Assembly: GCA_913058185.1 (NCBI GenBank)
Contig: CAJXQX010000016.1
Span: 1-58,326 of the forward strand
Direction: 5' to 3'
Source: an uncultured Verrucomicrobiota bacterium
GTDB lineage: Bacteria; Verrucomicrobiota; Verrucomicrobiia; Opitutales; Opitutaceae
DNA: 58,326 nt
The position numbers were made by a program, and so were the translations under genes. Each line of letters begins with the position of its first letter. Within the stretch, counting starts at the first letter, position 1. This document shows, piece after piece, positions 23,253-57,830 of the stretch. The notes beneath the pieces were generated by a model. That model had not been told where the DNA came from. It searched no databases and was given only the letters and a program-made list of their open reading frames with translations.

Positions 23253-23270
23253 TCAGGAGTCCCTCCTATT

Positions 23271-28272: not shown

Positions 28273-28388
28273 CGGACTCCCCGCCGAGGTCTCGGCGTAG
28301 CTACGGCGCAGGGTGCTGCCATCCGGCTAAGATGTGAGACGAGGTGGTGAGGTTGCCCTGAATTGATGGACAGAGCGTTGGAACACGT

Positions 28389-33498: not shown

Positions 33499-33591
33499 AA
33501 GTGCTTCATTCGCGTAGTGAATCAGTCTATTGGACTTTAATTTCGGATGGCGAAGCAAACGAGCGATCAATCAGAAAGTAGGGGGTGCTCA

Positions 33592-34758: not shown

Positions 34759-34786
34759 GATCTGGCATCGGGTTGCTCAGGGGAAC

Positions 34787-34918
34787 TCAGTCCTCAATCA
34801 AAATGACACTGTGACTGCGCAGAAGGCCCCCTCGGATTTCGGATTGCCCGTCCGACCGAAGGTAGCCGAGGAACGTGGCTCGGTGGGGACCCCGCTCGAT
34901 TAAACGTGGACGATGAGT
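34787..34918 (-). pseudogene. Possible coding remnant
   Basis: Between the deacetylase gene and the next gene, one minus-strand frame is open for 43 codons and ends with a natural-looking stretch (ATFLGYLRSDGQSEIRGG) before a stop at 34787. It has no start and no recognised family. It may be the C-terminal scrap of a lost gene, or chance. Confidence 0.3.
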
Positions 34919-34953
34919 TTACCGGGGTTGAACCGATTTTAAAACGGGCCATG

Positions 34954-35862: not shown

Positions 35863-36089
35863 AGTAAGAGACTCCTAAAACTCCCGTTTGGTTACGAATA
35901 CATCAGATTTTTTGGTCGGTATACTCGGGGTGGCGAGTCGGAAAATTGACCCTCATCTCTCATAAATTGGAATACAGTCCGCCCTGGGCGATGATCCGCC
36001 CGTGGAATTGGGGAACTTGAGGGAGCCGGCTCACGTCGCAATAGAACGGGTTTGTCGTGGGTCGAAAACGTCCACAGACTGGGAAGGAT

Positions 36090-38456
36090 ATGACCTCGGC
36101 ATCAGATACGCGCCAGAATCGCATTTCACTCGATGGAGCATGGGAGCTGGTGGGTGGTCCCCATCAGGAAGTGTCACCGCAGTTCGCTGCGTTTGAGCAC
36201 CAGACCGAAATCCGTATTGCTGCACGCGTGCCGGGCAACGTGGAGGACGACCTCGTCGAAGCAGGTTTGCTGAAGCCGCTCGAGATGGGGGAGGCCGCTT
36301 ATCAGACCTTGGACTACGAGGGGCACCGTTGGTTTTTCCGCAAGTCCTTCGAAGCGCCTCTGATTGATCAATCGGAACAGTTGCGCCTTGTTTTTGAAGG
36401 AATCGATACCCTCGCCGAAGTCTTCCTCAACGGACAGTCGTTGGGTGAAACCCGCAACATGCTGATTCCTCATTCGTTCGAAATTGGAAACACGATTCGG
36501 CGAGGCGAAGCCAATGAATTGATCGTGAGAATTGATCCGGTGGTGGTGGCCGGGCGCGAGCGGGAGCCGGAACCTTGTGAATTCGTCAACGGTTTCACCG
36601 AACGAGCGGCGATTCGGAAGGCCGCGCATATGTATGGCTGGGATATTTTGCCGCGCATGGTATCCGCCGGATTGTGGCGACCCGTTTATCTGCAAACGGT
36701 GCCAGCGGTTCATTGGCGGCAGGTGTTCCCGCAGACCCTGTCGATTGACCGGGAGCAACGCAGCGCGGAGGTCGCGGTTTTCTGGGATTTTGTCGTGCCC
36801 CATGTCAGCCTCAAGGGTTGGCAGCTCGCGATATCTCTCGATGACAGTCAGGGGATTCGTCGGGATCTCAAAAAAGACCCGCTGTTTGCGTGCAGCGGTC
36901 ACCTCATGCTGAGTCTGGAGGACATCGAGTTCTGGTGGCCGAAGGGACTGGGTGAGCCCACCTTATACACGCTGCGGCTTGAGCTGCTCGATCCGGAAGG
37001 AAATATTGCGGCAGAGCATCTGCAGAAGGTCGGGTTGCGCACGCTGGAATTGGTCAAAAGTGAAATTACGACCGAGGCAGAACCCGGCGAGTTCGTCTTT
37101 GTCGTAAATGGCGAGAAGGTCTTCATCAAAGGAACCAACCATGTGCCGTTGGATGCGTTGCACGGCCGCGATGAACGCCATCTGGAGGCGCTGATGGCGA
37201 TGACTGCGGACTTGAACTGCAACATGCTCAGAATCTGGGGTGGGGGTGTTTACGAAACGGACACGTTTTATGACCGCTGCGACGAACTGGGCATTATGGT
37301 GTGGCACGATTTTATGTTCGGCTGCGCCCTCTACCCCCAGACGACTGATTTTCTGGAGCAGACGCGCGAAGAAGCGGAGATCATTGTGAAGCGCTTGCGC
37401 CATCACGCCTGTATGGCGCTTTGGAGCGGAAACAATGAGAATGATGTGGCTCACGACTGGTTCCCGCTGCACAGCAAACTCAATCCCAACGACGATCGCA
37501 TAAGCCGTGAAATTCTACCGGAAGTGCTGAGGCGCTTGGACCCGCTGCGCTCTTACTTGCCGAGTTCGCCCTACGTGAGCCAAAAGGTCTTCGAACGCGG
37601 GAAGAAGACCTCGGAAATACCCGAAGATCACCTCTGGGGACCGCGCGATGATTTCAAAGGACTGTTCTACACCAATTCGCCAGCTCATTTCGTCAGTGAA
37701 ATTGGATACCACGGGGCTCCGTGTCTGGAGTCGCTCCAACAGATGATTGAACCGGACCATCTGTGGCCGTTTGAGCAAGATGGGAAAATTGATTCCCAGT
37801 GGCGGGCGAAGGCGATTGCCAGTTTTCCGGACGAATCGCTCCATGATGGTCGCATCCGACTCATGGCGAACCAGGTTGCGATTCTGTTCGACGCGATTCC
37901 CGATCAACTGGAATCGTTTATCCGAGCTTCCCAGATCAGCCAAGCCGAGGCGATGAAGTATTTTATCGAGCGATTTCGGATGGGTAAATGGCGCCGCACC
38001 GGAATCCTATGGTGGAATATCCGTGATGGCTGGCCCCTGATTTCCGATGCGGTGGTCGACTACTACAACCGTCCGAAATTGGCCTACGCGTTTATCAAGC
38101 GAGTCCAGCAAGACGTCTGTGTCATGGTAGCTGAGCCGGAGAACGGCAGACACCCAATCATTGCGGTTAATGATACGCTGAACGATGTCATCATCGAGGT
38201 AGTCGTGAGCTCAATCGAACAGTCCGCCCCACTATTGCAACACACGCTGACGGTGCCGGCAAATGGTCGCGCCGAAGTCGGCGACGTGCCGGTTTCCTCC
38301 GGGGCTGATCTCTATCAGCTGACCTGGCAGGGCGCTGGATCAAGCGGTCGCAACCACTATTTGGCGGGCCCCCGGCCGTTTGACTTGGAGCAATATACGC
38401 AATGGGTGGCTCAACTTGGGCTCGAAACGGAGATACCGGCGTTCGCGACCGTTTAA
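36090..38456 (+). CDS. GH2 family beta-mannosidase-like glycoside hydrolase
   Basis: A 789-aa enzyme without a clear signal peptide. The start at 36090 is preferred over an in-frame ATG at 36057 because a purine-rich GGGAAGG lies just upstream. The N-terminal jelly-roll (ISLDGAWELVGG) is followed by Ig-like domains and a TIM barrel. WGGGVYETDTFYDRCDELGI is the usual beta-mannosidase block, the acid/base is Glu450 in WSGNNEND, and the nucleophile is Glu537 in FVSEIGYHG. It would release terminal beta-mannose-type sugars from oligosaccharides, probably in the cytoplasm. It ends the plus-strand carbohydrate block. Confidence 0.92.
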   Translation: MTSASDTRQNRISLDGAWELVGGPHQEVSPQFAAFEHQTEIRIAARVPGNVEDDLVEAGLLKPLEMGEAAYQTLDYEGHRWFFRKSFEAPLIDQSEQLRLVFEGIDTLAEVFLNGQSLGETRNMLIPHSFEIGNTIRRGEANELIVRIDPVVVAGREREPEPCEFVNGFTERAAIRKAAHMYGWDILPRMVSAGLWRPVYLQTVPAVHWRQVFPQTLSIDREQRSAEVAVFWDFVVPHVSLKGWQLAISLDDSQGIRRDLKKDPLFACSGHLMLSLEDIEFWWPKGLGEPTLYTLRLELLDPEGNIAAEHLQKVGLRTLELVKSEITTEAEPGEFVFVVNGEKVFIKGTNHVPLDALHGRDERHLEALMAMTADLNCNMLRIWGGGVYETDTFYDRCDELGIMVWHDFMFGCALYPQTTDFLEQTREEAEIIVKRLRHHACMALWSGNNENDVAHDWFPLHSKLNPNDDRISREILPEVLRRLDPLRSYLPSSPYVSQKVFERGKKTSEIPEDHLWGPRDDFKGLFYTNSPAHFVSEIGYHGAPCLESLQQMIEPDHLWPFEQDGKIDSQWRAKAIASFPDESLHDGRIRLMANQVAILFDAIPDQLESFIRASQISQAEAMKYFIERFRMGKWRRTGILWWNIRDGWPLISDAVVDYYNRPKLAYAFIKRVQQDVCVMVAEPENGRHPIIAVNDTLNDVIIEVVVSSIEQSAPLLQHTLTVPANGRAEVGDVPVSSGADLYQLTWQGAGSSGRNHYLAGPRPFDLEQYTQWVAQLGLETEIPAFATV

Positions 38457-40040: not shown

Positions 40041-41696
40041 TCATTTTCGTTTTGGGTTTTCGCGTTTGGCCGAGGCTTCGCTGATAGTGGTGGAGGGATC
40101 CGATTGATAGTCGGACCATTCCCAGTGAATTGGAGCTGCATCATTGTTTCCTTTTGGGAGTGGCTTTACCAAGCGGGACATGAGGTGCGCGGTGTCCGTG
40201 CCCATCGATGTCCACTGCTTTTCCATGGATTTGACGCGTTCGGGATATTTGTCGGCTAGATTCGTTTGTTCCGCTCGGTCTTGTTTGATGTTGTAGAGTT
40301 CCCACGGGCCACCTTGTAAATTTACTATTTTCCAGTCGCCGTCGCGGAGACCGCGGTCGGTTTGAAAATGGAGGAAAATCGGGTTCTCTCGAGAGAATGG
40401 TCCTCCCGCGAGCAGCGAAGCGAATGACTCTCCGGAGACGTTGGTCAGATCGCGCTTAGGCCATGCGCTGGGAATATCTGTTTGGGTGACCTCGGCGATG
40501 GTGGGGAGGATATCGATAATGTGAACGGGAGTGGATACAGTTGAGCCGGCTTTCGTTTTTAGACCTGCGGGCCAGTGGACAACGGCTGGGGTGGAGGAAC
40601 CACCTTCGTATTGGTTCTGTTTATACATTCGAAAGGGAGCGTTGCGCGCCCAAGCCCACCCCGTGCTGTCGTTCCAATTCGAGGCGCGGTCGTAGGGAAA
40701 GAGTTCGCGACCTTTGCTAGGACGTTCGTAGGGACAGGCGCCGTTGTCGGAAAGAAAGAGAATAATCGTGTTGTCGAGTTCGCCGGCTTGTTCGATGTCC
40801 TCTACGATTCTTCCGATTTCTTGATCGAGCCGATCGACGAGTGCGGCGTAGGCGGCGCCGCGGCGAACCTCGAAGTTTCGCTGTGCAGCGGAGAGGTCTT
40901 TCCAGGCGGGAATATGCTCGGGGCGTGATGGCACGTCCACGTTGTGGTCGAATAATGCCATGCTTTTTTGTCGGGCGATTCGAGCTGCATGGATCTCGTC
41001 CCAGCCTTTTTCGTAGAGCTCTTCATACTTCTCGTAGTCCTCTCTAAGCGGCTGCAGAGGGGCGTGAGGAGCGTTGAAAGCCATATAGAGAAACCACGGC
41101 TGGTCGCCGTCGCCTTGCCGGGCTTCGTCGAGGAAGGTGAGCGCGTAGTCTGCCTTGTCAGTGGTGGCATAAAATCCGGTCGTTGGGATTGACCAAGCTT
41201 CGCGGTCCAGGCGCCAAGTGTTGTCGCCGGAGAAATAGTTGGTAGCGCCGCTGAGGTGTCCGAAATAGCGTGCGAAGCCGTAGTCCTACGGTTCGTTGTT
41301 GAGGTGCCATTTACCTACCATCGCGGTGTAGTAGCCTTGTGCGGAAAGGTTTTCCGCGATGGTGGTCGATCGATCGATGGACTTGTTGCCATCTTCGGCG
41401 ATACCGGCTTGGTAAGGATATCGCCCGGTGAGGAGGCTAATCCGCGAGGAATGGCATTTTGCGGTGTTGTAGAATTGAGTGAACCGAAGTCCGTTTTCAG
41501 CCAACCGGTCAAGCTGGGGCGTTTCTATTTCGCCGCCGTAACATCCGAGGTCTGAGTAGCCAAGATCGTCAGCTAGAATAACGAGGACATTGGGTTTCGC
41601 GGCGTCGGTTTTACTCTCTTCTGCCTGAAGCGAACCCCCCGAAGTGAAATGAAATAATAAGGTGGCCGCGGTAAGCGCCATTCGTGGAAGAGACAT
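40041..41696 (-). pseudogene. Sulfatase gene interrupted by one in-frame amber codon
   Basis: A single frame from 41696 to 40041 encodes a complete S1-type sulfatase of about 550 codons, but codon 137 (41288-41286) is TAG. Before it are a signal peptide, LADDLGYSDLG metal ligands, the formylglycine site Cys81 in KCHSSRISLLTG and GKWHL; after it DYGFARYFGHLSGATNYF and all C-terminal blocks continue in the same frame. CHSSR has Ser instead of Pro/Ala at the third position. The rest shows no decay, so this is a recent mutation, an assembly error or a strain-variable position. Protein initiation inside the second half would lack the active site. Confidence 0.85.
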
Positions 41697-45621: not shown

Positions 45622-47016
45622 TCACGCTGGACTCTGGGCTGATCTTTCCGCGGCATTTTGTGCCATGGTTGCTTCCAGTTCTTGCTCAAGCTTGTAATCG
45701 ATCTTGTAAAATAGGGTGACGAAGGCGGTCAGAAATGCGATGGAGGCGGGGATGACACTCATGAGCATAACGATGCCATTCAGGGTATCGGGAGCCTGCT
45801 CCATGTTTGCTTCGAAACCGTAAAACCCGAGGAGGAATCCCGCGGAAGATCCGCCGAGCGTCCAACCGAGTTTCTGCGAGGTCGTCCCGGCAGAGAAGAT
45901 CAGGCCCGTGGCACGTCGGCCCATTTTGTATTCCGCGTAGTCGGCGGTATCGGCGAACATCGCCCAAGTCAGAGGCATGAGTGGCGCAGCGAGAAAGGAG
46001 CCGACCAGATGGAGACTGAACAAGAGCACGATATCTGTCGGACCGATGAAGTAGAAGCCCAGTAGCAGGATCGCATTGATCAGAGTCAGACTGATGTAGG
46101 CCCGCCGTTTGTCGCGAAACTGCGCGACAATGAACTTCGTGCACGATACGCCCGCGATGGCCAGAACGGTTCCGGAGACCAGAAAGCTGGTGGCGAGACT
46201 CAGGTCTCCGATGTAATACTTGAAGTAATACAATATCGCGCCGCCCCGCACCGAGATATGGACGAGCGTGAGCACGCCCACCACGCAGAATACCAACCAG
46301 GGTCCATTTTTAAGGAGATCCTTCAGATCTTCCCAGACCTTGTTCTGGCGCGGCGGGGGAATGACACGCTCGCGGGTGAATTTGAACGTAATGAAAAACA
46401 GTCCGCCGGCGGCAACCGCATACACGCACATCGTCAGAAAGTAGCCTTGTTGGTCATTTCCTTGCCCCAGGGTGGCCACCAACCACAGCAGCGTTCCTCG
46501 CACAATCAAACTGCCGGAATTCGCGCCGAGAAATCGAAATGAGGCGAGAACCGTTCGTTCCTCTGAGTTCGATGTCATGACGCCCATCAAGGCCGAGTAG
46601 GGGACATTGATCGCGGTATAGGCCATGCCGACCAAGGAATAGGTGACATAAGCCCAAATCAGTTTCCCGGTCATGCTCAGGTCCGGCGTCATAAATACCA
46701 AAATTCCGGTAATCATGAAAACCGGGATCATCCAGAGAATCCAGGGGCGGAACTTACCATGGCGGGATTTGGTGCGATCCGCAATCATACCCATGATGGG
46801 GTCATTGGCCGTATCCCAGAAGCGCGTGATCAGGAGCATCAAGCCGGCCGCAATGGCACTGATGCCAAAAACATCCGTGTAAAAAAACATCAAGAACTCG
46901 GCCAAGGTCGTATAATAAAGACACGATGCGGTGTCCCCTAGTCCATAGGCTACTTTCTCGGTGAGGGGGAGTTTGCCTCCCGGTTTGTCGGCGGGAGGTG
47001 GGAGCGGGGATGACAT
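45622..47016 (-). CDS. GPH-type MFS sugar transporter
   Basis: A 464-aa inner-membrane symporter of the glycoside-pentoside-hexuronide:cation family, with about 12 membrane segments. Signatures: KVAYGLGDTASCLYYTT at the N-terminus, ITRFWDTANDPIMGMIADRT with the conserved Asp pairs, and SRHGKFRPWILW after helix 3. These permeases import mono- and disaccharides, often uronides, with Na+ or H+. It is the last gene of the minus-strand sulfatase operon, 17 bp after a sulfatase gene, and the likely import step for the product. Part of its 3' end is duplicated at 42109-42273. Confidence 0.92.
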   Translation of the reverse strand: MSSPLPPPADKPGGKLPLTEKVAYGLGDTASCLYYTTLAEFLMFFYTDVFGISAIAAGLMLLITRFWDTANDPIMGMIADRTKSRHGKFRPWILWMIPVFMITGILVFMTPDLSMTGKLIWAYVTYSLVGMAYTAINVPYSALMGVMTSNSEERTVLASFRFLGANSGSLIVRGTLLWLVATLGQGNDQQGYFLTMCVYAVAAGGLFFITFKFTRERVIPPPRQNKVWEDLKDLLKNGPWLVFCVVGVLTLVHISVRGGAILYYFKYYIGDLSLATSFLVSGTVLAIAGVSCTKFIVAQFRDKRRAYISLTLINAILLLGFYFIGPTDIVLLFSLHLVGSFLAAPLMPLTWAMFADTADYAEYKMGRRATGLIFSAGTTSQKLGWTLGGSSAGFLLGFYGFEANMEQAPDTLNGIVMLMSVIPASIAFLTAFVTLFYKIDYKLEQELEATMAQNAAERSAQSPA

Positions 47017-47033: not shown

Positions 47034-48368
47034 TTATTTCGGCGGGTAGACGCCGCGCACCTTGAGGTAGTCGATTCGGGTGCCTTTGCTGGGGTAAGCG
47101 TTGATCGCGGCTTGGAGGTTCCGGTGGGCTTGCTTCACCGTGGGAGCAGCCACTTCAAGATCGATGACGGCTGTCTCCATGACATCCACCTGGGTGTCGT
47201 AGAGATCGCCGTTGTCATAGAGCTTGTAGCGTCGATCCCGGGCATACCGCACCTCGGGGTGATTGTTTGAGTCGTTGAACTTTTTGGCGTAGGGATGCGG
47301 GAAGTAGTAGCCGTAGATCCACTCCCGTGGGTTTCCGCATTCACTCAGGCATTGGGGCCAAAAGCTTACGCCGTCGGCGTCGGTTGATTCTTTAGGGGGC
47401 AGGCCCGCGGCCTCGACGATGGTAGGAAAGAAGTCAGAAAAAGCGATCAGGTCGCGGTTGACCTGCTTTGCCGGAATACGCCCCGGCCAGTTGGCGATCA
47501 GAGGCACATGGGTGCCGTGGTCGCGCGTGTATCCTTTGCCCCCGCTGATGCGTTGGCCGTTGAATTCGGAAACGAGGTTTTTGTTGGTCCCGTTGTCTGC
47601 GGTAAAAATAATCAGCGTGTTGTCGCGCACTCCCTGGGCTTCGAGTGTATCGACCAGGCGACCCACCAGCGCATCCATAGTGTTCACCATATCGATGAAG
47701 TTCTTCTTATCGCTGGTCTCGCCTCGGTCCTTGCTGTTCGGGGTGGGGAGAAAAGGGTCATGCACGAGAATCATCGGGTAGTAGGCGAGAAAGGGCGTGT
47801 CGGTCTCGGCGCAAGACGTGATGAACTCGGCCAGAAAATCCGTGCAGGCATCTGGACCGTAGCTGTCGTCCGGTAGACCCATTAAGGCACCGTCTTTTTC
47901 AAGGGAAGGGTTCCAGTAACGCTCGCGAGAGGTGAGGGGAGTGTTCCACAAGCAGTAGGTATCGAATCCCGCTTCATTAGGATGGGTGCCACCTTCGGCG
48001 GTGAGCAATTGCCACTTGCCCGCGACGGCGGTCGCGTAACCCGATTGGCGGAATTGATGGGCGAAGGTGGGTTCCCCGGCGGGGTAGATGCCGAAGTCCT
48101 CATAATTGAATACGTTGGACTTCCCCGACAGGAGATTGACGCGACTCGGCGTGCAGACCGGTGTGGAGTGACAGTTTTCGAACCGAATTCCCGCTGCAGC
48201 CAGAGCGTCCAATCGAGGGGTCGAATACTCTTTGCTACCGTAGCTGCTGAAACACTCGAACCCGATATCATCAGCCATGATGAGCAAGACGTTTACCGTT
48301 TTGTCAGCAGCCGTGGCGACAGAGGCCAGCATCCCCAGAACAGCCAGGGAGAGGTTAAATATCTTCAT
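47034..48368 (-). CDS. S1 family sulfatase
   Basis: A secreted sulfatase of 444 aa. The start at 48368 begins a signal peptide (MKIFNLSLAVLGMLASVATAA); the frame is open further upstream (48395) but without export signal there. Metal ligands MADDIGFECF, formylglycine Cys72 in CTPSR and FTADNGTN with the late ligand pair are present. It resembles arylsulfatase-type S1 enzymes with a short C-terminal region. It lies between the transporter gene and another sulfatase gene (10 bp gap to the latter). Substrate position and sugar are not predictable. Confidence 0.9.
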   Translation of the reverse strand: MKIFNLSLAVLGMLASVATAADKTVNVLLIMADDIGFECFSSYGSKEYSTPRLDALAAAGIRFENCHSTPVCTPSRVNLLSGKSNVFNYEDFGIYPAGEPTFAHQFRQSGYATAVAGKWQLLTAEGGTHPNEAGFDTYCLWNTPLTSRERYWNPSLEKDGALMGLPDDSYGPDACTDFLAEFITSCAETDTPFLAYYPMILVHDPFLPTPNSKDRGETSDKKNFIDMVNTMDALVGRLVDTLEAQGVRDNTLIIFTADNGTNKNLVSEFNGQRISGGKGYTRDHGTHVPLIANWPGRIPAKQVNRDLIAFSDFFPTIVEAAGLPPKESTDADGVSFWPQCLSECGNPREWIYGYYFPHPYAKKFNDSNNHPEVRYARDRRYKLYDNGDLYDTQVDVMETAVIDLEVAAPTVKQAHRNLQAAINAYPSKGTRIDYLKVRGVYPPK

Positions 48369-48378
48369 GGCCTGAAAT

Positions 48379-49800
48379 TCACTTGGTGGTGGCATTGGTG
48401 GCGGCCACTTCGGGGAATTGATATTTTGCTCGTTTTGTCTTTCGGGCCACGGGATCGGGGTAGTGCTCCGCTCTCCAAGTGGAATGAAGCTCGGCCATCT
48501 CCGATACCATTTCGGGATACTGGTCGGAAAGATCGCGCTCCTCGGATATATCAGATTTAAGGTTATAGAGTTCAGGCTCTTTCCAGAATTGATGCACGAG
48601 CTTCCAATCGCCCCGCATCACCGCCAGATTGTGCTTCGTCTCCCAGTGAATGGCATCCGTTCTGGAATAGTCACTCCCGGTCAGTAAGGGCATCAGTGAG
48701 TGCCCATCTATTTCCATGTTTTCCGGAACAGGCATTTTCACGGCATCAAGAATCGTGGGGAGCACATCCATCGTCACGGCGATTCCATCACGCTGGAGAC
48801 CGGCAGGAATACGGTCGGGCCAACGGGCGATGAAGGGCACGCGAATACCGCCTTCGTAGGTGGAGAACTTCCATTCGCGCAGGGGACCATTAGAGATATT
48901 GGCCCCCCTGGGGCCGTAGGCTTTGCTTTCGGCCGAAGGCCCATTATCGGACATGAATATGACCAGGGTATTTTCGCCGAGGCCAAGGTCATCAACGACG
49001 CTCATTATTCGGCCGATACCCGTGTCCAGTTGCTCGACCATAGCCGCATAAATCGCAAAAAGCTCATGGTCGTATTTCGCGCGGTATTTTTCGATAAGAT
49101 CCGCGGGAGCTTCCATCGGTGAGTGGGGTGCAGTGTAAGACAGAAACATGAAGAACGGCTGGTGGGTTTCCTGCGTCTTCAGGTAATCAATGGCTTGGTC
49201 GGTGATCGCGTCCGTGTAGTAGTCGGTGATTGGGATGGGCGTTTCGTTGTGATAACTGCCGGTTACATCGTAGTAGTTAGATTGGCCGGCCAGGGTGCCC
49301 CAAAATTCATCGAATCCATGGGTGCGGGGCCAAGAGCTGGGATCGTATCCCAGATGCCACTTTCCGATCAGGATGGATTGATAATCACCCGCTTTGAGCA
49401 CTTCGGGTATCGTGACCGCTGAATGATCCAAAGAGAGTCTCGGGCTTCCTTCCTTCGCCTCGGGCGCGGCGAGCTGGGGCATTCCCACGCTATGGGGATA
49501 CCGACCGGTTAGGAGTGCCGCTCGGGTGGGTGAACAGATCGGCGCGGACGCATAGAAGCGAGACAGGCTTACCCCATCCTGGGCCAATTGATCGAGATGC
49601 GGCGTGTCTATGTTGGAAGCGGGCCCCAGGTCGGCCCAGCCCATATCGTCGGCGAGGATCACCAGTATGTTCTGGGGCGGGGACGAACCGCCCGGTAGCG
49701 CGCAAGCGGATAGAATCAAACTCCCTGCGAGCAGAAAATGGAACAGATTATGGGGTGTGTGCTTCTTCAATGCTCTCAGGTGGTTCTTAGCCGTTATCAA
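48379..49800 (-). CDS. S1 family sulfatase, predicted lipoprotein
   Basis: A 473-aa sulfatase. The N-terminal signal ends in a lipobox (LSAC, Cys33), so it is probably anchored in the membrane, unlike the other sulfatases here. Metal ligands LADDMGWADLGP, formylglycine Cys89 in CSPTR, KWHLGYDPSSWP and FMSDNGPSAE are present. The layout is like arylsulfatase A-type S1 members (about 470 aa). It lies 10 bp before the next sulfatase gene and 12 bp after the Gfo/Idh/MocA gene. Confidence 0.9.
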   Translation of the reverse strand: MITAKNHLRALKKHTPHNLFHFLLAGSLILSACALPGGSSPPQNILVILADDMGWADLGPASNIDTPHLDQLAQDGVSLSRFYASAPICSPTRAALLTGRYPHSVGMPQLAAPEAKEGSPRLSLDHSAVTIPEVLKAGDYQSILIGKWHLGYDPSSWPRTHGFDEFWGTLAGQSNYYDVTGSYHNETPIPITDYYTDAITDQAIDYLKTQETHQPFFMFLSYTAPHSPMEAPADLIEKYRAKYDHELFAIYAAMVEQLDTGIGRIMSVVDDLGLGENTLVIFMSDNGPSAESKAYGPRGANISNGPLREWKFSTYEGGIRVPFIARWPDRIPAGLQRDGIAVTMDVLPTILDAVKMPVPENMEIDGHSLMPLLTGSDYSRTDAIHWETKHNLAVMRGDWKLVHQFWKEPELYNLKSDISEERDLSDQYPEMVSEMAELHSTWRAEHYPDPVARKTKRAKYQFPEVAATNATTK

Positions 49801-49812: not shown

Positions 49813-50943
49813 TTAAACTACGTTCATGCGTTGGCCTGATTCAGCCGAGGTATGGGCGGCTTCCAAAACTTGAATCACGCCGAGGCCATCGGAGAAATCG
49901 GGCGAGATGGGTTGTCCGGTTGAGATCGCAGCCAAGAAGTCTGCCACCGCATGAACAAAGGTATGCTCATAGCCGATGGTATGACCCGGCGGCCACCATT
50001 TCCCGACGTAGGGATGCTCCGCTTCGGTAGCGAGAATGGAGCGATAACCTCTGATGTGGATGGGGTCGTCATTCGAGTAGAATTCCAGTCGATTGAGATC
50101 CTCAAGGTTCCATCTCAGTGCTCCCTTGCTGCCAAATATCTCAAACTGATTCGCATTGCGTTGACCGGTCGCGAACCGGGAGGACTCAAACGATCCCAGC
50201 GCGCCGTTGGCAAATTTCACCAGCATTTGGGAAGCATCATCCACATCGACCGGGCCCATATCGGCACTCCCGGATTCAAGGGGTCGTTGGTGGATGAAGG
50301 TATTTTTTTGGCAATATACGGATTCGATTTTGCCCACCAAGAAATGGGCCAGATCCACACTGTGGGAGTTTAAATCTCCGTGCGGCCCGAACCCGGCATA
50401 CTCTTTCTTCAGCTTCCATCCCAACGGAGCCTCAGGGTCTACCAGCCAGTCTTGCAGATAGGCCCCACGCCAATGTCGGATCTCTCCGATGCGGCCTTCG
50501 TCGATGATTTGTTTCGCCAAGGCAACGGCCGGGCTACGGCGATAGTTGTAGTTAACATAGTGGCGGATATCAGCTGCTTCAGCCTCCTGTAACATGGTCT
50601 GGGCCTCTGTCCCGGTCAGAGCCATGGGTTTCTCGCAAAACACGTGCTTGCCGCATTTGGCGGCCGCGATGGCCACTTCGGGTTGCATGGATTGGGGCAG
50701 AGCCAGATCGACCACATCCACGTCGTCGCGTTGAATCACGGTTCGCCAGTCGGTCGAGGAATCCTCGAACCCCCATCTGCGGGCGAAGGTTTTGGTTTTC
50801 TCTGGGTCGCGTCCGCACACCACTTTAAGGACCGGTTCCAGGTCGGGTTCGAAGAAGGGAATCACTTGTCGCCACGCATTGGAATGCGTTCGACCCATGA
50901 ATTCAGTGCCGATGAGAGCGATGCGTATTTTGTCCTTACTCAT
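49813..50943 (-). CDS. Gfo/Idh/MocA family oxidoreductase
   Basis: A 376-aa NAD(P)-dependent enzyme without a signal peptide. The Rossmann start IRIALIGTEFMGRTH, the EKP motif in CGKHVFCEKPM (the Lys is the catalytic base) and the C-terminal alpha/beta domain are all present. Family members oxidise or reduce sugars and inositols, and some act at C3 of glycosides. In this operon it sits next to the GMC/subunit-3 pair, so it could handle a keto-sugar made in the periplasm. Its product direction cannot be read from sequence. Confidence 0.9.
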   Translation of the reverse strand: MSKDKIRIALIGTEFMGRTHSNAWRQVIPFFEPDLEPVLKVVCGRDPEKTKTFARRWGFEDSSTDWRTVIQRDDVDVVDLALPQSMQPEVAIAAAKCGKHVFCEKPMALTGTEAQTMLQEAEAADIRHYVNYNYRRSPAVALAKQIIDEGRIGEIRHWRGAYLQDWLVDPEAPLGWKLKKEYAGFGPHGDLNSHSVDLAHFLVGKIESVYCQKNTFIHQRPLESGSADMGPVDVDDASQMLVKFANGALGSFESSRFATGQRNANQFEIFGSKGALRWNLEDLNRLEFYSNDDPIHIRGYRSILATEAEHPYVGKWWPPGHTIGYEHTFVHAVADFLAAISTGQPISPDFSDGLGVIQVLEAAHTSAESGQRMNVV

Positions 50944-50969
50944 AGGTCGCGGGATTTTTGGGCGCCTGC

Positions 50970-52682
50970 CTAAATATTTCCTTGGCGCATTTCCTCGACG
51001 GCGTGGTGGGCGGCGCGGGCGGTGATCGCCATATAGGTCAACGAAGGGTTTTGGGTGGACGTTGAGGTCATGCAGGCTCCGTCGGTGACCAAAACATTCT
51101 TACAGGCGTGCAACTGATTCCAGCCATTGAGGAGCGATGTTTTGGCCTCACGGCCCATCCGCACTCCGCCCATTTCGTGGATGTCGATTCCGGGGGCATC
51201 CTGCTTGTTGGTGGTTTTAATATTACTAAATCCGGCTGCGGCAAACATCTCGGAGAGTTGCTCGGTGGCGTCGGCCTCCATCTTCCGATCATTTTCATCA
51301 AAATCGATATTGATTCGAAGGAGGGGCATACCCCATGCATCCGTTTTTTGGGAATCCAGCGTCACGGCATTGCTTTCCTTGGGAATCGTTTCGCCCATCA
51401 TTTGCGCCCCGGCAGACCAACCGCCCAGCTTCGGATTCAGCAGGCTTTCCTTTAGATCTTCGCCCGCGCCTGATTGGTTGCTGCTCAAATTTCGACTGGC
51501 CGAAAAGGCGGTGGCGTATCCCCGTAGGAAATCGGTTTCCTGCTTAAACATATTCCTAAACCGAGGAATGTAAGTGGACCCGGGACGACCGCCGAAGGGG
51601 GCAAACTCGTTGAGTCCGTCGAACTGCGCGCGGACCTTGATATTGTAGTTATGGAAGGCGACGAACTTGCCCAATAACCCGTTGTCATTCCCCAAGCCGT
51701 TCGGGAAACGCTTCGAGGTGGAATTTAGCAGGATGAGATTGGTGTTAATGGCCGAGGCATTAACGAAAATGACCTTCGCGTAATATTCGGTGACTTCCTT
51801 GGTCAGGCTATCGATGACCCGCACGCCGGTCGCTTTGCCCTGCTTATCGTCGTAGATGACGGAGTGCACCACCGAGTGGGGGCGTAGCGTGAGGTTTCCG
51901 GTTTTCTCCGCCCAGGGCAGGGTGGATGAGTTGCTGCTGAAGTAAGCGCCGAAAGGACAGCCGCGCTTACAAAGTCGCCGGCTCATACATTGATAGCGTC
52001 CTTGCGCGAGCTGGGTAGGCGTTGATTTGGTCAGATTGGCGAAGCGAGCGGCGATCAGATGCCGTCCTTCGAACTTCTCGTCCAAAACGCGTTTAAAATG
52101 GTCCTCCACCGCGTTGAAGGGATTGGGGGGCAGGAACTCCCCATCGGGCAATTCGGCGAGTCCGTCTTGGTTTCCAGATATCCCGGCGAACGATTCCACA
52201 TGACTATACCAGGGAGCAATATCCTCGTAACGAATCGGCCAATCGACCGCGAACCCATCGCGGGCCGGGCCTTCGAAATCGTATTGGCTCCAGCGCTGGG
52301 TCTGCCGCGCCCAAAGCAGCGACCGGCCGCCCACTTGGTATCCGCGAATCCAATCGAAGGGTTTCTCCTGAATGTAGGGATGCTCATCATCCTTCACGAA
52401 GAAGTGGTCGGTATCCTCTTTCCAGGCGCCCGCTCGACTGAGGATCGGATTGGCTTGGCGGGTCTCGTGCGGTATCTGGTTCCGGTGCTTGAACTCGTAA
52501 GGCATTTTGTTGGCCGTCGGATAATCCACGTTGTGCTTCACATCGCGGCCCCGCTCGAGGACCAGAGTCTTGAGTCCTTTTTCCGTGAGTTCTTTGGCCG
52601 CCCAACCTCCGCTGATACCTGAGCCCACGACGATGGCATCGTAGGTGTTTTGTTTGATTCCGTTAATACTGAGGTTGGCCAT
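50970..52682 (-). CDS. GMC family oxidoreductase (FAD-dependent sugar dehydrogenase)
   Basis: A 570-aa flavoenzyme. The FAD motif is DAIVVGSGISGGWAAKEL near residue 15, a second motif GYQVGGRSLLWARQ follows, and the C-terminal catalytic region contains HEMGGVRMG and TSTQNPSLTYMA. There is no signal peptide. The gene overlaps the subunit-3 gene by 1 bp (TGATG), showing translational coupling. Homologous pairs (glucoside 3-dehydrogenase and gluconate 2-dehydrogenase types) oxidise sugar C3 or C2 hydroxyls and are exported together on the partner's Tat signal. That is the likely route here. Confidence 0.92.
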   Translation of the reverse strand: MANLSINGIKQNTYDAIVVGSGISGGWAAKELTEKGLKTLVLERGRDVKHNVDYPTANKMPYEFKHRNQIPHETRQANPILSRAGAWKEDTDHFFVKDDEHPYIQEKPFDWIRGYQVGGRSLLWARQTQRWSQYDFEGPARDGFAVDWPIRYEDIAPWYSHVESFAGISGNQDGLAELPDGEFLPPNPFNAVEDHFKRVLDEKFEGRHLIAARFANLTKSTPTQLAQGRYQCMSRRLCKRGCPFGAYFSSNSSTLPWAEKTGNLTLRPHSVVHSVIYDDKQGKATGVRVIDSLTKEVTEYYAKVIFVNASAINTNLILLNSTSKRFPNGLGNDNGLLGKFVAFHNYNIKVRAQFDGLNEFAPFGGRPGSTYIPRFRNMFKQETDFLRGYATAFSASRNLSSNQSGAGEDLKESLLNPKLGGWSAGAQMMGETIPKESNAVTLDSQKTDAWGMPLLRINIDFDENDRKMEADATEQLSEMFAAAGFSNIKTTNKQDAPGIDIHEMGGVRMGREAKTSLLNGWNQLHACKNVLVTDGACMTSTSTQNPSLTYMAITARAAHHAVEEMRQGNI

Positions 52683-53224
52683 CAGGCTTTGCCTCCCAAT
52701 TTGCTGGCCGGATAATAACCGTCGTAGGGCTGTGGGATCATTTCGTGAGGAAGCACGTTTGTCATCACGTATTTGGATTGAAGATACCCCTGAATGGTTC
52801 GTCTCTTCGTGATCTGGATGAATGCCCTTATTTCCGCACTGGCGTCGGGACTCCCGCCCATGCTTTTGATGGCCTCAACTCGAGTGGTGGCATCGCACGA
52901 CAAAAACGGTTGCCCAAAGTGTTGGACGACGAATGCATCCATGTCGCGTAGGCCGGAGTAGAAGGCGGCCTGATCCTTCGCGTCGTGACAGTCATTCACC
53001 ATGAGCAAAACGAATTGATCCACCTGCAGCTCCTTGGCGCCGGGAGTATCCGTCGCCGGAATCATGGTTGCTACCACTGACTGTAGTAGACGCTTCTCGG
53101 TGGCGCCAAGAATGGCGTCTGACGAGTGGGGTAGACGTGATGTTTGCCCCCGTAATAAGGGCGGAAGGAACAAAAATCCTCCCCCGATCAGGGCAGTGCT
53201 CTTGATGGCTTGGCGTCGGTTCAT
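52682..53224 (-). CDS. Gluconate 2-dehydrogenase subunit 3 family protein
   Basis: A 180-aa Tat-exported partner of the GMC enzyme. The N-terminus MNRRQAIKSTALIGGGFLFL carries a twin Arg and a hydrophobic core. Family blocks follow: LLQSVVATMIPATDTPGAKE and DVQ-like segments, then LRDMDAFVVQHFGQPF and RTIQGYLQSKYVMTNVLPH. It has no redox centre of its own in this sequence and is thought to act as chaperone and export carrier. The gene is directly upstream of GMC with a 1-bp overlap. Confidence 0.88.
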   Translation of the reverse strand: MNRRQAIKSTALIGGGFLFLPPLLRGQTSRLPHSSDAILGATEKRLLQSVVATMIPATDTPGAKELQVDQFVLLMVNDCHDAKDQAAFYSGLRDMDAFVVQHFGQPFLSCDATTRVEAIKSMGGSPDASAEIRAFIQITKRRTIQGYLQSKYVMTNVLPHEMIPQPYDGYYPASKLGGKA

Positions 53225-53257
53225 GGCGGTAGACAGTTTAAGGTGTGCGTAACGATC

Positions 53258-54298
53258 CTAGGACGATTTCCCCAATGACTCGAGCGTGCGGTTGATCAAT
53301 GATTGGGTGAGACGAATGCCCTCCATTTCGGGGATGGTCTTTCCCTCATATTCGATGCCGATATAACCCGAATAGTCGGAGTCGGATATGATTTTAAGCA
53401 TGCGATGATAGTCGGTATTGATTTCGTTTCCTTGCGCATCGAAATCATGTGATTTGGCACTCAGTCCCTTGGCGAAGGGCATCAGATCGGCCACCCCTTG
53501 GTAACGGTCATACTCCAAACCAATCTCATCCTCTTGGTAAACGGGATCATTTTCGTAGGGTTTTTTGGCCAAGGCGTAGCGCTCAGGGCCGACCTTGTTG
53601 CGAGCCACATAAAAATTCCCAAAATCGGGTAGGGTGCCGCAGTTATCGAGACCGACGCCGGAGATCACGGCCGCCAGCCAGGCCCCGTTGGATGAGAGTC
53701 CGCCATGGTTCTCGACGATCACGTTGAGGTCGTGCGATTGAGCGAACGTGCAGAGCCTTCCCAGACCATCAATGCACAGTGCCTTTTGCTCTGCCGCAGG
53801 GAGTGATGCGTCGGAGGCCGCGTTGACTCGAATCGAATGACAACCGAGTGACTTGGCGGATTCCACCCACGCATAGTGCCCTTCGATCGCATTGTTTCGT
53901 CGTTTCTCATCGGGATCTCCGAGGTTCCCCACTTTGTCACACATGATGAGCAGGTTGGCTACCCCGAGATCATCGGTCGCGCGTTTGATCTCGGCGAAGT
54001 ATTCCTTGCTCTTGGGTTGAGCTCCCAACCGGGGATGATCGACGTAGAGAAATTGGCCTGACCATTCCACCGCATCCAGGCCGAAGTTCTCCCGCGCAAT
54101 GCGCGCGAAATCAATATTGTCCAACTCACCCGCCCGCAGGGCGCGGTGGAGCGACCATTGCGCCAACGATATTTTGAACCGAGCCTGCGCAACCAAATCC
54201 TCCGTGTAATCCTTTTTCTGGCACGCGGCTAAGGCACAACTGCCGAGCAGAACGGCGGAGGATTTTAGGAATGTCCTGCGATGGATTGAAGCACTCAT
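53258..54298 (-). CDS. TIM-barrel sugar isomerase/epimerase-family lipoprotein
   Basis: A 346-aa protein of the xylose isomerase-like TIM-barrel superfamily. The N-terminus has a Tat-type RRTFLK and a lipobox (LAAC at about residue 25), so it is probably a periplasmic lipoprotein rather than a cytoplasmic isomerase. Metal-site candidates are in NVIVENHGGLS, DFGNFYV and IGIEYEGKT. Family relatives in GMC-containing operons have been reported to cleave 3-keto-glycosides by elimination. The gene lies 33 bp upstream of the subunit-3 gene and 25 bp downstream of a sulfatase gene. Confidence 0.85.
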   Translation of the reverse strand: MSASIHRRTFLKSSAVLLGSCALAACQKKDYTEDLVAQARFKISLAQWSLHRALRAGELDNIDFARIARENFGLDAVEWSGQFLYVDHPRLGAQPKSKEYFAEIKRATDDLGVANLLIMCDKVGNLGDPDEKRRNNAIEGHYAWVESAKSLGCHSIRVNAASDASLPAAEQKALCIDGLGRLCTFAQSHDLNVIVENHGGLSSNGAWLAAVISGVGLDNCGTLPDFGNFYVARNKVGPERYALAKKPYENDPVYQEDEIGLEYDRYQGVADLMPFAKGLSAKSHDFDAQGNEINTDYHRMLKIISDSDYSGYIGIEYEGKTIPEMEGIRLTQSLINRTLESLGKSS

Positions 54299-54323: not shown

Positions 54324-55715
54324 CTAGGGGGATTTTGGTTTGATTCGCTTGGGCATGCTTGGGAGTGGCGCCGTGGGTAGAGCCTTCGATAGGCGCTCGA
54401 TGATGGCGGCACTGCCGGGACGGTTGGCGATATTGTTAAGCTCGCGCGGATCGTTAGCATGGTCGAACAACGCCTCGGCGTTGTAGGTTTTGAAATAGCG
54501 ATAACGTCCATCGCGCACGGCGTGATAGTTCTCGTTCTTCGAGGTGACGATGGCTCGATTGAGATCCGTCTTTGCCTCGATAATCGGGAGTAGATTCTCG
54601 CCGTCGTTGTTTTTGTTCGCGGGTAAATCCGCCAGAGCGAGCAGGGTGGGGTAGACATCCACCAAGCTTACTGCGGTATCGACTTCTTGCTGTTGCGCGC
54701 CGGGCTTCAAGATGAGTAGTGGGACCCGCGTGGACTCTTCCCAGAGCGTAAACTTGGAGAAATGCTCCTTCTCTCCTAAGTGCCAGCCGTGATCCGTCCA
54801 GATCACGACGATCGTATTGTCCGCAATCGGTGAGGCCCTTAGGCCCTCCAAGAGTCTACCCAGTTCAAAATCCGCATAACTAATACACGCGGCATAGCCA
54901 CGACTCGGGCCCGGGGTTTCGGCAAACTCCTTGAATCGCCGAGGTGGTAGAAGAGGTTCCGGAATGTTCTTATCCCAGTCAGCTGGATTGGTGGGAGGGG
55001 TGATTTCAACATCCTCATACTGATCGTAGAACGCGTCTGGAACAAACCAAGGCATATGCGGGCGATAGATCCCGACGGCCAGAAAGAGCGGTTCATCGCG
55101 AGAAGTCTCAAGCTGCTCGATTGCCCAGTTTACGACCTTATGGTCGCCCATATCCTCTAGCGGCTTACCGGTGCCGCCCCAATCGAACTTCCCTTCGCCA
55201 CGATCCGGCAGGACCTCCGGCATACTCTGCACCGGCAATTGCGCGTCGAAGGACGGAAAGAAATCATCCCAACCTCGAGGCGAAAAAAGCCCTTTCCGCT
55301 CGAATGCGCTTCCCTGATTCGCGTGATAGATCTTCCCGCCTCCCAGCGTAGCGTAGCCATGCTTTTTGAAATATTCCGGGAGCAGGAGAATGTCATCGAA
55401 TCGTGCGTTCGCCAACCAGTCATGACCGTTGCCATAAACGCCGGTCGACGCGGGATGGAGCCCCGACATGATAGAGGCGCGGGAGGAGTTACACACCGGG
55501 GCATTGCAGTGGGCGTTTCTAAACAATATCCCTTCAGCTGCCAGCGAGTCGAAGTGGGGCGTATCCACATCGAACGGCTCACCGTTCAGCTGAGTGGGTC
55601 CCCAGTCATTGAAGTCATCAATCGACACAAACAGGATATTGGGTCGACTGGCACCGAGGCAAAAGAACAAGGGCTGAAGGAGAATGAATAGAACGAGCGT
55701 GAGGTATCGGTTCAT
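54324..55715 (-). CDS. S1 family sulfatase (iduronate-2-sulfatase-like)
   Basis: A secreted 463-aa sulfatase with a signal peptide (LVLFILLQPLFFCLG). Metal ligands SIDDFNDWGP, formylglycine Cys75 in CNSSR (Ser at the third position, as in the pseudogene), LPEYFKKHGYATLGGGKIYH and VIWTDHGWHLGEKEHF are present. DFNDWGP, GKIYH and HGWHLGEK are hallmarks of the iduronate-2-sulfatase branch. That branch acts on sulfated uronic or hexose residues. Between the TIM-barrel lipoprotein gene and an SIS isomerase gene. Confidence 0.9.
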   Translation of the reverse strand: MNRYLTLVLFILLQPLFFCLGASRPNILFVSIDDFNDWGPTQLNGEPFDVDTPHFDSLAAEGILFRNAHCNAPVCNSSRASIMSGLHPASTGVYGNGHDWLANARFDDILLLPEYFKKHGYATLGGGKIYHANQGSAFERKGLFSPRGWDDFFPSFDAQLPVQSMPEVLPDRGEGKFDWGGTGKPLEDMGDHKVVNWAIEQLETSRDEPLFLAVGIYRPHMPWFVPDAFYDQYEDVEITPPTNPADWDKNIPEPLLPPRRFKEFAETPGPSRGYAACISYADFELGRLLEGLRASPIADNTIVVIWTDHGWHLGEKEHFSKFTLWEESTRVPLLILKPGAQQQEVDTAVSLVDVYPTLLALADLPANKNNDGENLLPIIEAKTDLNRAIVTSKNENYHAVRDGRYRYFKTYNAEALFDHANDPRELNNIANRPGSAAIIERLSKALPTAPLPSMPKRIKPKSP

Positions 55716-55730: not shown

Positions 55731-56300
55731 CTACGCCGATTTATTTTCGATAAACCAGAATGCGATCAGGTGATAGATCATCATCTGCATATCTTCTACG
55801 CGGCCATAGTGCTCATCGGGCAACACGATGGGCAGGGTGGCCAAATCGGACATTCGGCCCCGTCGGGAGCTGGTAATTGAAACCGTGGTCAGTTCCTGAG
55901 CATTGGCCCACTCGAACGCTTTCACCAAGTTCGGCGAATTTCCGCTGACACTGCCGCTCAGCACGACATCCCCGGGACGGGCATAGTTCTCCAGCTGGCG
56001 CACAAATACATCATCGTAGGCGTAGTCGTTGCCGAGGGCAGTTAACCACGCGGCGTTGTCGTTGAGCGTAATGACCCGGAAACGTTTCTTCAGCACATCC
56101 GAGGCGCCTTTGCCCAAATCGCAGGCCAAGTGCGAAGCGCTGGCCGCATTGCCGCCATTGCCAAAGAGAAAAATCTGACTGTCACGGGTATGAGCCTTTT
56201 CGAAGATATCGATGAGCGCGGTAATTTTTTCAGTCGGCAGTGACCTGATAAGTTTCACCTCCGCATCGAGGTATTGGTTTATCCAAGTTTCGCTAGTCAT
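55731..56300 (-). CDS. SIS domain phosphosugar isomerase-like protein
   Basis: A 189-aa sugar-isomerase domain protein similar to GmhA (phosphoheptose isomerase) by length and motifs: IFLFGNGGNAASASHLACDL, VLSGSVSGNSPNLVKA and VEDMQMMIYHLIA. No signal peptide, so it is cytoplasmic. In the operon it may isomerise or sense a phosphorylated product of the glycan; an LPS heptose role is also possible but LPS genes are far away in the window. It lies 15 bp upstream of the sulfatase gene start. Confidence 0.85.
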   Translation of the reverse strand: MTSETWINQYLDAEVKLIRSLPTEKITALIDIFEKAHTRDSQIFLFGNGGNAASASHLACDLGKGASDVLKKRFRVITLNDNAAWLTALGNDYAYDDVFVRQLENYARPGDVVLSGSVSGNSPNLVKAFEWANAQELTTVSITSSRRGRMSDLATLPIVLPDEHYGRVEDMQMMIYHLIAFWFIENKSA

Positions 56301-56387: not shown

Positions 56388-57830
56388 TCATTTCTGGTCC
56401 TTGGCGGGATAGTCGGGATTACGGCTCGGGAAATTTGCACTCATTTCCCATAAGCTGGAGGTGAGTTCCGAACTCATATCCTGCACAATTTTTCCGCGCT
56501 GGGCGGAGAGATCGTGGGACTCAGTGGGGTCTTTCGCCAGGTCGTATAATTCAAACCGCAGCCCTTCCGGGGTGTAATACTGGAGGAGTTTCAGGTCTCC
56601 TTTGCGGAGCGCAGAAACCGGCGTCGTTCCGCGGTAGTAGTGAGGGTAGTGAAAGACCAAGGATCGGGGTTTCCCTTGATTAAATTCCTTTTGATAGAGC
56701 AGGGGTTTCAGTGACGTGCCATCGGATGCCGATTGATCCGGATGATCCACCTCCGTCAAATCCAGCAGAGTGCTCAGGAGGTCGGTTGTCGTAACCGGAG
56801 TGTCCACCTTGTGCGGCGTATTTATGCCGGGAATCTGCATGAACCAAGGAATGCGAACCCCGCCTTCGTAGAGCGTTCCCTTACCCGAGCGGAGTGGGGT
56901 GTTGTCGGTAACCGTTTCGCCTTCCCACTCACCGGTCACACCTCCGTTGTCTGAAACAAAAACCACGATGGTGTTTTGGTCTTTCCCGGTTTTTTTGAGC
57001 CAAGCGAGAATTCGTCCCACGCCATCATCCAGCGATTTGACCATGGCGGCGTAGCCAGGATTGCGGTGCCTATTGTCAGGGCCAATGCGAGCGGAAAAAT
57101 CGTCGACGTAGGCGGGTTTTCCGTCGATCGGAACGTGAGGAACGAAGAAGCAAAGATTGAGGAAAAAGGGCGTATCGCCGGCATTTTCCATCAGGTTGAT
57201 CGCCTCGGTAGTAAGCCGGTCGGGCAGGTATTCCCCCTCCTTCCATCCATGCAAACCCGGAACATAGCGCGGCTCCCGATAAACCGTCCCGCGGTAGGGG
57301 GCGAAAAACGTGGAAGGGGCGCCCCAGTGGTGCCCGCCGATATTGACGTCGAAGCCTTGGACTTCCGGGTAGAAACTCGCTTCTCCCAGATGCCATTTGC
57401 CGATGTGAAAGGTGTGGTAGCCGGCTGCTTTGAAGCGTTCGGCCAAAGTGATTTCCTCCAACGGAAGATTACCTACGCTGTCGGCAGGAATCATGGGCTT
57501 ATCAAGCTTGGGTCCCCGCAGGGCATGCTCACTCCAGATGGTCATGCGCAGACGGGCGGGGTTCTTGCCGGTCATGATGGAGGCTCGGGTGGGCGTGCAG
57601 ATCGGGGCGGCAGCATAGGCGCTGGTAAACTCGATTCCCGACGCGGCGAAGCCATCCAAGTGGGGCGTTTCGTGCAGATCGGAACCATGGGTGTTCAAAT
57701 CATGGGCACCCAAGTCATCTGCCACAATGAGCACGACGTTGAGCGGGTCAGCTCCGTGGACCGGAGTGAGGCTGCCAAGGAGCAGAGCACATAAGAAACT
57801 CAGAGATGAGGGGAGGGGCTTTATCTTCAT
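56388..57830 (-). CDS. S1 family sulfatase
   Basis: A secreted 480-aa sulfatase with a signal peptide (LSFLCALLLGSLTPVHGA). Metal ligands VADDLGAHDLN, formylglycine Cys78 in CTPTR, KWHLGEASFYPEVQGFD and VFVSDNGGVTGEW are present. The layout is close to arylsulfatase A-type S1 enzymes of about 480 aa. An 87-bp gap with no clear promoter separates it from the SIS gene, so it is probably the same transcript. The 3' half shows no damage. Confidence 0.92.
   Translation of the reverse strand: MKIKPLPSSLSFLCALLLGSLTPVHGADPLNVVLIVADDLGAHDLNTHGSDLHETPHLDGFAASGIEFTSAYAAAPICTPTRASIMTGKNPARLRMTIWSEHALRGPKLDKPMIPADSVGNLPLEEITLAERFKAAGYHTFHIGKWHLGEASFYPEVQGFDVNIGGHHWGAPSTFFAPYRGTVYREPRYVPGLHGWKEGEYLPDRLTTEAINLMENAGDTPFFLNLCFFVPHVPIDGKPAYVDDFSARIGPDNRHRNPGYAAMVKSLDDGVGRILAWLKKTGKDQNTIVVFVSDNGGVTGEWEGETVTDNTPLRSGKGTLYEGGVRIPWFMQIPGINTPHKVDTPVTTTDLLSTLLDLTEVDHPDQSASDGTSLKPLLYQKEFNQGKPRSLVFHYPHYYRGTTPVSALRKGDLKLLQYYTPEGLRFELYDLAKDPTESHDLSAQRGKIVQDMSSELTSSLWEMSANFPSRNPDYPAKDQK

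Follow-up and report, generated by a model that had tools for sequence, protein, structure and literature searches.

A candidate oxidation–elimination gene set inside a sulfatase operon of an uncultured Opitutaceae bacterium

The GlycDH/TAT system of Rhizobium sp. GIN611 and the Agrobacterium tumefaciens operon GlycDH–AtOGE–AtHYD–Gfo combine a flavin dehydrogenase co-expressed with a TAT-signal protein, a TIM-barrel eliminase and a Gfo enzyme, and proceed through oxidation, elimination, hydration and reduction (PMC10628242; citations here and below draw on excerpts of the papers). Here we analyse a comparable set of four adjacent minus-strand genes at 49813–54298 in a 58,326-nucleotide stretch of DNA, referred to as the window, from an uncultured Verrucomicrobiota bacterium of the family Opitutaceae (contig CAJXQX010000016.1, assembly GCA_913058185.1). 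The genes encode a TIM-barrel lipoprotein, a subunit 3, a GMC flavin dehydrogenase and a Gfo/Idh/MocA enzyme (GFO), and they are embedded among sulfatases. The A. tumefaciens operon encodes two TIM proteins, an eliminase and a putative hydratase, whereas one is found here. Its substrates are plant phenolic glucosides, and the sections of the paper used here make no mention of sulfatases (PMC10628242). The words "periplasm" and "signal peptide" do not occur in the main text of that paper.

Three other systems resemble parts of the set. The LacABC dehydrogenase complex of Caulobacter oxidises C3 in the periplasm, where cleavage is also proposed to occur, but the cleaving protein belongs to PF06439 (DUF1080, a putative 3'-ketolactose hydrolase) and is not a TIM barrel (PMC9007349). 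The LgdA–LgdB1–LgdB2–LgdC pathway of Bacillus smithii has a Gfo-type C3 dehydrogenase, whose curated model is the best match of our GFO, although below the cut-off, and its eliminase and hydratase both bear the annotation sugar phosphate isomerase; it differs in being NAD-dependent, in having no flavin dehydrogenase, in acting on an anhydrosugar and in having no sulfatase in the cluster as described in the excerpts (PMC7676230). The C-glycoside deglycosidases DgpB/C and CarB/C share with the window protein the TIM barrel, the Glu/Asp/Lys/Glu metal ligands and an aligned His/Glu catalytic pair, but they carry a metal-binding His where the window protein has Ser, and they are heterodimers whereas no second subunit is found here (PMC8563793).

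The sequence-only reading of this stretch had held that homologues of these genes form oxidation–elimination routes, and the published GlycDH/TAT–OGE–hydratase–Gfo set and LacABC with DUF1080 bear this out (PMC10628242, PMC9007349). Its statement that no such pathway has been described is too broad, as comparable kits are published; it stands for the addition of sulfatases alone, which is itself paralleled in Catenovulum (see below). Both the chemistry and a comparable set of genes have thus been described, as has a periplasmic version with another cleaving protein in Caulobacter. What is new here is that a single operon unites the set with four sulfatases plus a GPH importer, and further a Tat (twin-arginine translocation) lipoprotein of the TIM type as the likely cleaver, and the Ser at its metal site (Ser280). 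The result listings of our literature search contained no publication that joins these genes with sulfatases.

Ten genes on the minus strand, from 57830 down to 45622, form an array around the quartet. The intergenic gaps along the array are, in order, 87, 15, 25, 33, −1, 26, 12, −17 and 17 bases, so the array is operon-like and not a chance neighbourhood. The four genes lie at the coordinates and on the strand first assigned to them, between sulfatases as had been proposed, with two on each side, and the array ends in a GPH importer that passes the TIGR00792 model. Sulfatases crowd the host genome, with 151 matches (150 listed) in 4.09 Mb.

The GMC protein (50970–52682, minus strand; PF05199, PF00732) is a proposed glycoside 3-dehydrogenase. 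It aligns over its full length with two dehydrogenases of membrane complexes, that for fructose at 124 bits and that for glucose at 92 bits. Residues H502 and N545, which we take to be the His/Asn pair of the GMC active site, stand at the catalytic positions in all nine aligned sequences (the window protein and eight relatives, with fructose dehydrogenase as the alignment reference). Residues C232, C238 and C242 are likewise kept in 9/9 and align with the 3Fe-4S ligands of FAD-dependent glucose dehydrogenase (FAD-GDH), Cys212/218/222, with the same spacing (PMC6719666). The subunit 3 gene (52682–53224, minus strand; PF13618, 94.9 bits against a cut-off of 23.4) overlaps the GMC gene by one base, and its product starts with MNRRQAIK, by eye a Tat signal. 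PF13618 also has matches in the Caulobacter control genome. No signal sequence is visible by eye in the GMC protein itself. The small subunit of FAD-GDH has been termed a hitchhiker in export (PMC6719666), and by analogy the window GMC protein would leave the cell carried by its proposed hitchhiker partner, subunit 3. We infer the C3 specificity of the GMC enzyme from its gene company.

The TIM-barrel gene (53258–54298, minus strand; PF01261, 87.6 bits against a cut-off of 31.1) encodes our proposed 3-keto-glycoside lyase. Its product begins with RRTFLK followed by the lipobox LAAC, so that by eye both this protein and subunit 3 look Tat-exported and the TIM protein looks lipid-anchored as well. 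In the family, RR occurs near the N-terminus, within the first 45 residues, in 25 of 28 aligned members (a crude motif). A profile built from these 28 sequences, the window protein included, was compared with solved chains, whose identities were read from the structure titles. The best match is the uncharacterised 4ovx (462 bits), a xylose-isomerase-domain protein of Planctomyces limnophilus that belongs to the same family, with 56% identity to the window protein and the same Ser. Next to it, C-glycoside deglycosidase chains score 62, 62, 61, 42, 41, 36, 33 and 27 bits, the isomerase Art22 scores 37 bits and tagatose 3-epimerases score 22 bits. The profile thus supports placing the TIM protein nearer to the 3-keto-glycoside eliminases than to the epimerases. 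An AlphaFold2 model of the protein (pLDDT confidence 87.8) is a xylose-isomerase-like barrel, with fold scores of Z 41.6 to 4ovx and Z 29.7 to Art22.

The active-site residues point the same way, with one exception. In the deglycosidase AgCGD2 the metal ligands are Glu147, Asp179, His269, Lys271 and Glu305, with the base His149 and, beside it, Glu307 (PMC8563793). Profile alignments made with other deglycosidase chains place E196, D225, S280, K282, E316, H198 and E318 of the window protein opposite Glu147, Asp179, His269, Lys271, Glu305, His149 and Glu307. E196, H198, D225, K282 and E316 are kept in 28/28 aligned members and E318 in 27/28. The catalytic His two residues past the strand-5 metal ligand is therefore present, as E196-N-H198 (28/28), where AtOGE has His132/His134; the exception is Ser280, where AtOGE has His189 (PMC10628242). 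None of the ten operon genes encodes a CGE-type second subunit, all being matched to other families. Relatives of the TIM protein at an E value of 1e-40 or better occur in 19 of 288 sampled genomes of the phylum, its own included, and at 0.001 in 62 of 288, many of them weak.

GFO (49813–50943, minus strand; PF01408, PF22725, PF02894) is levoglucosan-dehydrogenase-like and is proposed to be a 3-keto-sugar reductase. Among solved structures it is closest to 4h3v (387 bits; no function given) and 6a3f (317 bits; titled "putative dehydrogenase"), the latter presumably a levoglucosan dehydrogenase structure, and it also matches the scyllo-inositol/L-glucose dehydrogenase 5ya8 (249 bits). Levoglucosan dehydrogenase acts specifically at C3 (PMC7676230). 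In another family of the class, a Gfo gene whose product is 57% identical lies 42 bases behind a PF01261 gene that matches the window-type TIM profile at 43 bits. At three further loci, L131 (on contig C19 of the window's own genome, 6854–11574), L133 and L135, Gfo proteins 45–46% identical to GFO are encoded beside PF01261 TIM proteins; these have no visible signals, no GMC match is present, and sulfatases lie within L131 and L135. GFO shows no signal sequence by eye and is therefore probably cytoplasmic, so the route, which had been called periplasmic, would be so only in part: the label fits the Tat-signalled subunit 3 and TIM protein but not GFO.

Taken together, we propose a periplasmic C3 oxidation–elimination of desulfated oligosaccharides in which the ketosugar is reduced inside the cell, a reading to which we give an even chance. 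Exported sulfatases would strip sulfate esters and free the C3 hydroxyl. The GMC enzyme, carried through the Tat system by subunit 3, would oxidise C3 of the glycoside in the periplasm, an architecture drawn from homology, and electrons would pass from the flavin to the 3Fe-4S cluster and on to a heme protein whose gene would lie outside the window. The lipid-anchored TIM barrel may then take the acidic C2 proton via His198 and expel the C1 substituent. The products would be a shortened saccharide and a 2-hydroxy-3-ketoglycal; hydration of the latter to a 3-keto-sugar would fall to this TIM protein or to another one. The GPH symporter would import the sugars, cytoplasmic GFO would reduce the 3-keto-sugar with NAD(P)H, and the SIS-domain protein of the operon may isomerise a later sugar phosphate. 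Gene order, protein families and residue conservation are direct observations and the export signals were judged by eye, whereas in this scheme we infer C3, the substrate, the direction of GFO, the lyase activity and the role of the SIS protein. A more specific form of the proposal, a route at the outer membrane or in the periplasm that breaks sulfated oligosaccharides with no glycoside hydrolase, is put forward tentatively: sulfatases would unmask C3, the Tat-exported flavin dehydrogenase would oxidise it, and a lipid-anchored, Ser-bearing TIM protein of the uncharacterised 4ovx-like Tat family would eliminate by means of an altered metal site. We regard this form as possible but rather doubtful.

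To place the quartet among its relatives, we scanned a genome collection, which returned at least 592 stretches and at least 581 GMC relatives. The best 80 were kept, several of them on short contigs, so the counts describe the nearest relatives only. All 80 are Bacteroidota by title, with 59–71% identity, and 67 of them have subunit 3. First BLAST labels gave Gfo at 7 and sulfatase at 2 of these loci; widened labels gave TIM at 16, Gfo at 12, PF06439 at 4 and sulfatase again at 2. At 8 loci a different TIM gene directly precedes subunit 3–GMC, and three of these 8 then have a Gfo gene, in two cases after a second GMC gene. In a FastTree phylogeny of 110 sequences, the window GMC protein and a 78% identical paralogue from contig C65 are placed in a group that also holds 48 sequences from Bacteroidota (local support 0.999), and from this nesting the window GMC gene was probably acquired from Bacteroidota. 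The paralogue lies at locus L067 (12423–19924), on another contig of the same genome, with a subunit 3 (46%), a BD-FAE esterase, a divergent TIM protein and a sulfatase.

Plasmid records tell of similar company. The GMC protein matched 599 records, of which 25 were listed, and the 13 that are annotated at the match were compared. In many of these records a GMC relative of 44–66% identity adjoins genes for TIM, Gfo and PF06439 proteins. Subunit 3 lies beside GMC in 10, Gfo and DUF1080 are present in 7 each and sulfatase in 2, and a TIM or "sugar phosphate isomerase" gene lies within the 7–9 kb flanks in 9 (once about 7 kb away). GMC, subunit 3, TIM and Gfo occur together in 6/13, from Ketogulonicigenium, Xanthomonas, Paracoccus, Palleronia, Hymenobacter and Croceicoccus. 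Within the phylum we compared 36 subunit-3 loci, covering 37 of 39 subunit-3 matches (excluded were the window's own match and one that scored under the cut-off), with 20 controls. Twenty newer case loci span 10–16 kb and 16 older ones about 20 kb; the controls span 16 kb, and 19 of them share a contig with subunit-3 loci at a distance of 100–200 kb, while one comes from a genome without subunit 3. TIM was found at 9 case loci versus 1 control, Gfo at 11 versus 0 and PF06439 at 4 versus 0. For TIM and Gfo the excess is partly circular, since some of the TIM/Gfo/PF06439 reference set was drawn from case loci (L126 and L127; TIM loci such as L061 and L067).

The addition of sulfatases to such a kit is rare but recurs. 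On plasmid pCadTS8_1 of Catenovulum adriaticum, genes for a TIM protein, a heme protein, DUF1080, GMC, subunit 3 and a sulfatase stand in a row on one strand; the TIM and sulfatase identities were confirmed. This cluster differs in having a CxxCH heme protein and GH43, there is no Gfo gene in the stretch, and its TIM protein is not found by the window TIM at an E value of 1e-5. In Alteromonas 76-1, the part of a plasmid that carries subunit 3–GMC also encodes rhamnosidases and sulfatases; that plasmid serves ulvan degradation, and the excerpted paper does not mention the GMC gene (PMC6431674). In an Algoriphagus locus a sulfatase gene adjoins subunit 3–GMC. Closer to the window, a decayed copy of the operon lies in another genus of the same family (genome G223, locus L128, 8930–11103), 75.7% identical over 1918 bases. 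It keeps the GMC 3' end, an intact GFO gene (80%) and the 5' end of sulfatase c in the order of the window, and its intact GFO has a dN of 0.12 versus a dS of about 1.9, near saturation.

Several results weigh against the proposed oxidation–elimination route, the strongest of them, against a plain eliminase label, being Ser280. The full eliminase metal site is not present, as the strand-7 His is replaced by Ser280, and position 280 is Ser in 26 of the 28 aligned members, Cys in one and His in one. Changing the equivalent His to Ala leaves AtOGE with less than 0.1% activity (PMC10628242) and strongly lowers that of the deglycosidases (PMC8563793). The eliminase label is therefore not plainly transferable and lyase activity is putative; Ser280 would mean either altered metal binding or shifted chemistry. 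In the fold comparison, deglycosidases and 3-epimerases are near-tied at Z of about 25–27, so the fold alone does not decide the function. A GMC gene is nearby at only 1 of 31 loci with a window-like TIM (L037–L066 and L070), indicating that a GMC neighbour is no requirement for this TIM family. A window-type TIM occurs at 0 of the best 80 GMC relatives, and for this TIM type the idea of the quartet as a conserved Bacteroidota cassette was rejected. Sulfatases are sparse there too (2 of 80, as above), and at the phylum GMC/subunit-3 loci they are not enriched (7/36 versus 4/20 controls, in BLAST searches limited to the four sulfatases of the window). The best curated model of GFO, levoglucosan dehydrogenase NF052479, is matched at 365.8 bits, short of its cut-off of 650. 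No CxxCH heme motif occurs in the open frames of at least 120 residues in the window, so the electron acceptor would be encoded elsewhere. LacABC, by comparison, has three components, consisting of GMC, subunit-3-like and cytochrome parts, whereas the window is without a heme gene. The sequence-only reading of non-hydrolytic cleavage is partly supported: the GMC residues, the TIM profile and the gene company are on its side, with Ser280 and the lack of phylum-wide sulfatase enrichment opposed.

Ser280 fits an explanation in which C3 is indeed oxidised, yet the TIM protein only hydrates a ketoglycal or epimerises a 3-keto-sugar, and cleavage falls to a PF06439 protein elsewhere in the genome. 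LacABC has been proposed to work with such a protein (PMC9007349), the fold of the TIM model also matches that of YcjR, a 3-keto-D-glucoside 4-epimerase, and the genome holds 30 PF06439 matches, with 25 places over the cut-off. Of the 25 places, 15 have a listed sulfatase no more than 5 kb away, where a uniform null would predict at most 27% (the positions are not independent). However, none of the 30 matches is on the window's own contig, C16, so PF06439 is absent from the operon; the TIM profile is nearest to eliminases, YcjR falls short of an E value of 0.01, and the catalytic His and Glu are kept. We consider this explanation rather unlikely. That the TIM protein might be a plain isomerase had been named at the outset as fatal to the proposal; the profile and the active-site residues disfavour it, while the near-tied fold scores leave it some room. 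As an observation in its own right, the proximity of PF06439 and sulfatase genes may indicate a genome-wide link between oxidative glycoside cleavage and desulfation.

The GMC protein and subunit 3 could instead form a respiratory dehydrogenase of free monosaccharides, with the TIM protein and GFO performing separate isomerase and dehydrogenase steps on sugars or inositols. Fructose and glucose dehydrogenases are indeed the nearest solved GMC structures, and GFO does match 5ya8, but it matches 6a3f better, the TIM profile is not epimerase-like, and GMC relatives keep company with TIM, Gfo and PF06439 genes, a context that belongs to the oxidation of glycosides at C3; we hold this account to be improbable. 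It is more improbable still that recombination carried the quartet into the sulfatase array, where it would act on an unrelated glycoside and share only transcription with the sulfatases. Such a history would suit the nesting of the GMC protein in Bacteroidota, the sulfatase-rich genome and the absence of enrichment in the phylum sample, and the decayed copy in another genus and the GMC paralogue on C65 suggest mobility. Yet gaps of only −1 to 33 bases lie around and between the four genes, the order GMC–GFO–sulfatase c is common to the window and the decayed copy, and sulfatases are found close to GMC/subunit 3 in Catenovulum, Alteromonas and Algoriphagus as well.

The remaining operon genes, all on the minus strand, frame the quartet. 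S1 sulfatase a (56388–57830), exported by eye, has the kappa-carrageenan sulfatase S1_16 (9fo1, 355 bits) as its nearest solved relative. The SIS-domain protein (55731–56300) is GmhA-like, but is not filed as GmhA since it scores 107 bits against the gmhA cut-off of 209. The nearest solved relatives of S1 sulfatase b (54324–55715) are choline sulfatases and arylsulfatases, followed by iduronate-2-sulfatase (135–107 bits). S1 sulfatase c (48379–49800) has a lipobox by eye, and S1 sulfatase d (47034–48395) is a sulfatase family match. These enzymes were placed by their nearest solved relatives and not by subfamily, which does not fix the glycan. The GPH-type sugar:cation symporter (45622–47016) scores 370.4 bits with TIGR00792 against a cut-off of 231.35. 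A scan for promoters and terminators gave a signal no higher than in shuffled sequence. A gene end cut at the contig edge (57931–58326, minus strand; no Pfam family) lies 100 bases before sulfatase a, and the operon may extend beyond ten genes.

Elsewhere in the window, 40041–41594 (minus strand) holds a sulfatase with one in-frame TAG, either a broken gene or a sequencing error, whose open frame at 40041–41084 is without the N-terminal part. Polysaccharide genes occupy 26863–38456, with GH28, a chondroitinase-B-like protein, DUF1961, an amidohydrolase and GH2 domains; the gene at 31777–33498 matches no Pfam family. A phosphate-uptake-like set lies at 17567–23948 on the plus strand, with Porin_O_P, PBP, two permeases, an ABC protein and PhoU.

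The search for enzymes that open up sulfated glycans centres mostly on glycoside hydrolases and polysaccharide lyases. If oxidation–elimination modules do cooperate with sulfatases, part of the degradation machinery in bacteria rich in sulfatases would have been overlooked, annotated as "isomerase" or "dehydrogenase". The window offers a clean test case for the Tat-exported TIM family, whose sole solved member found is 4ovx.

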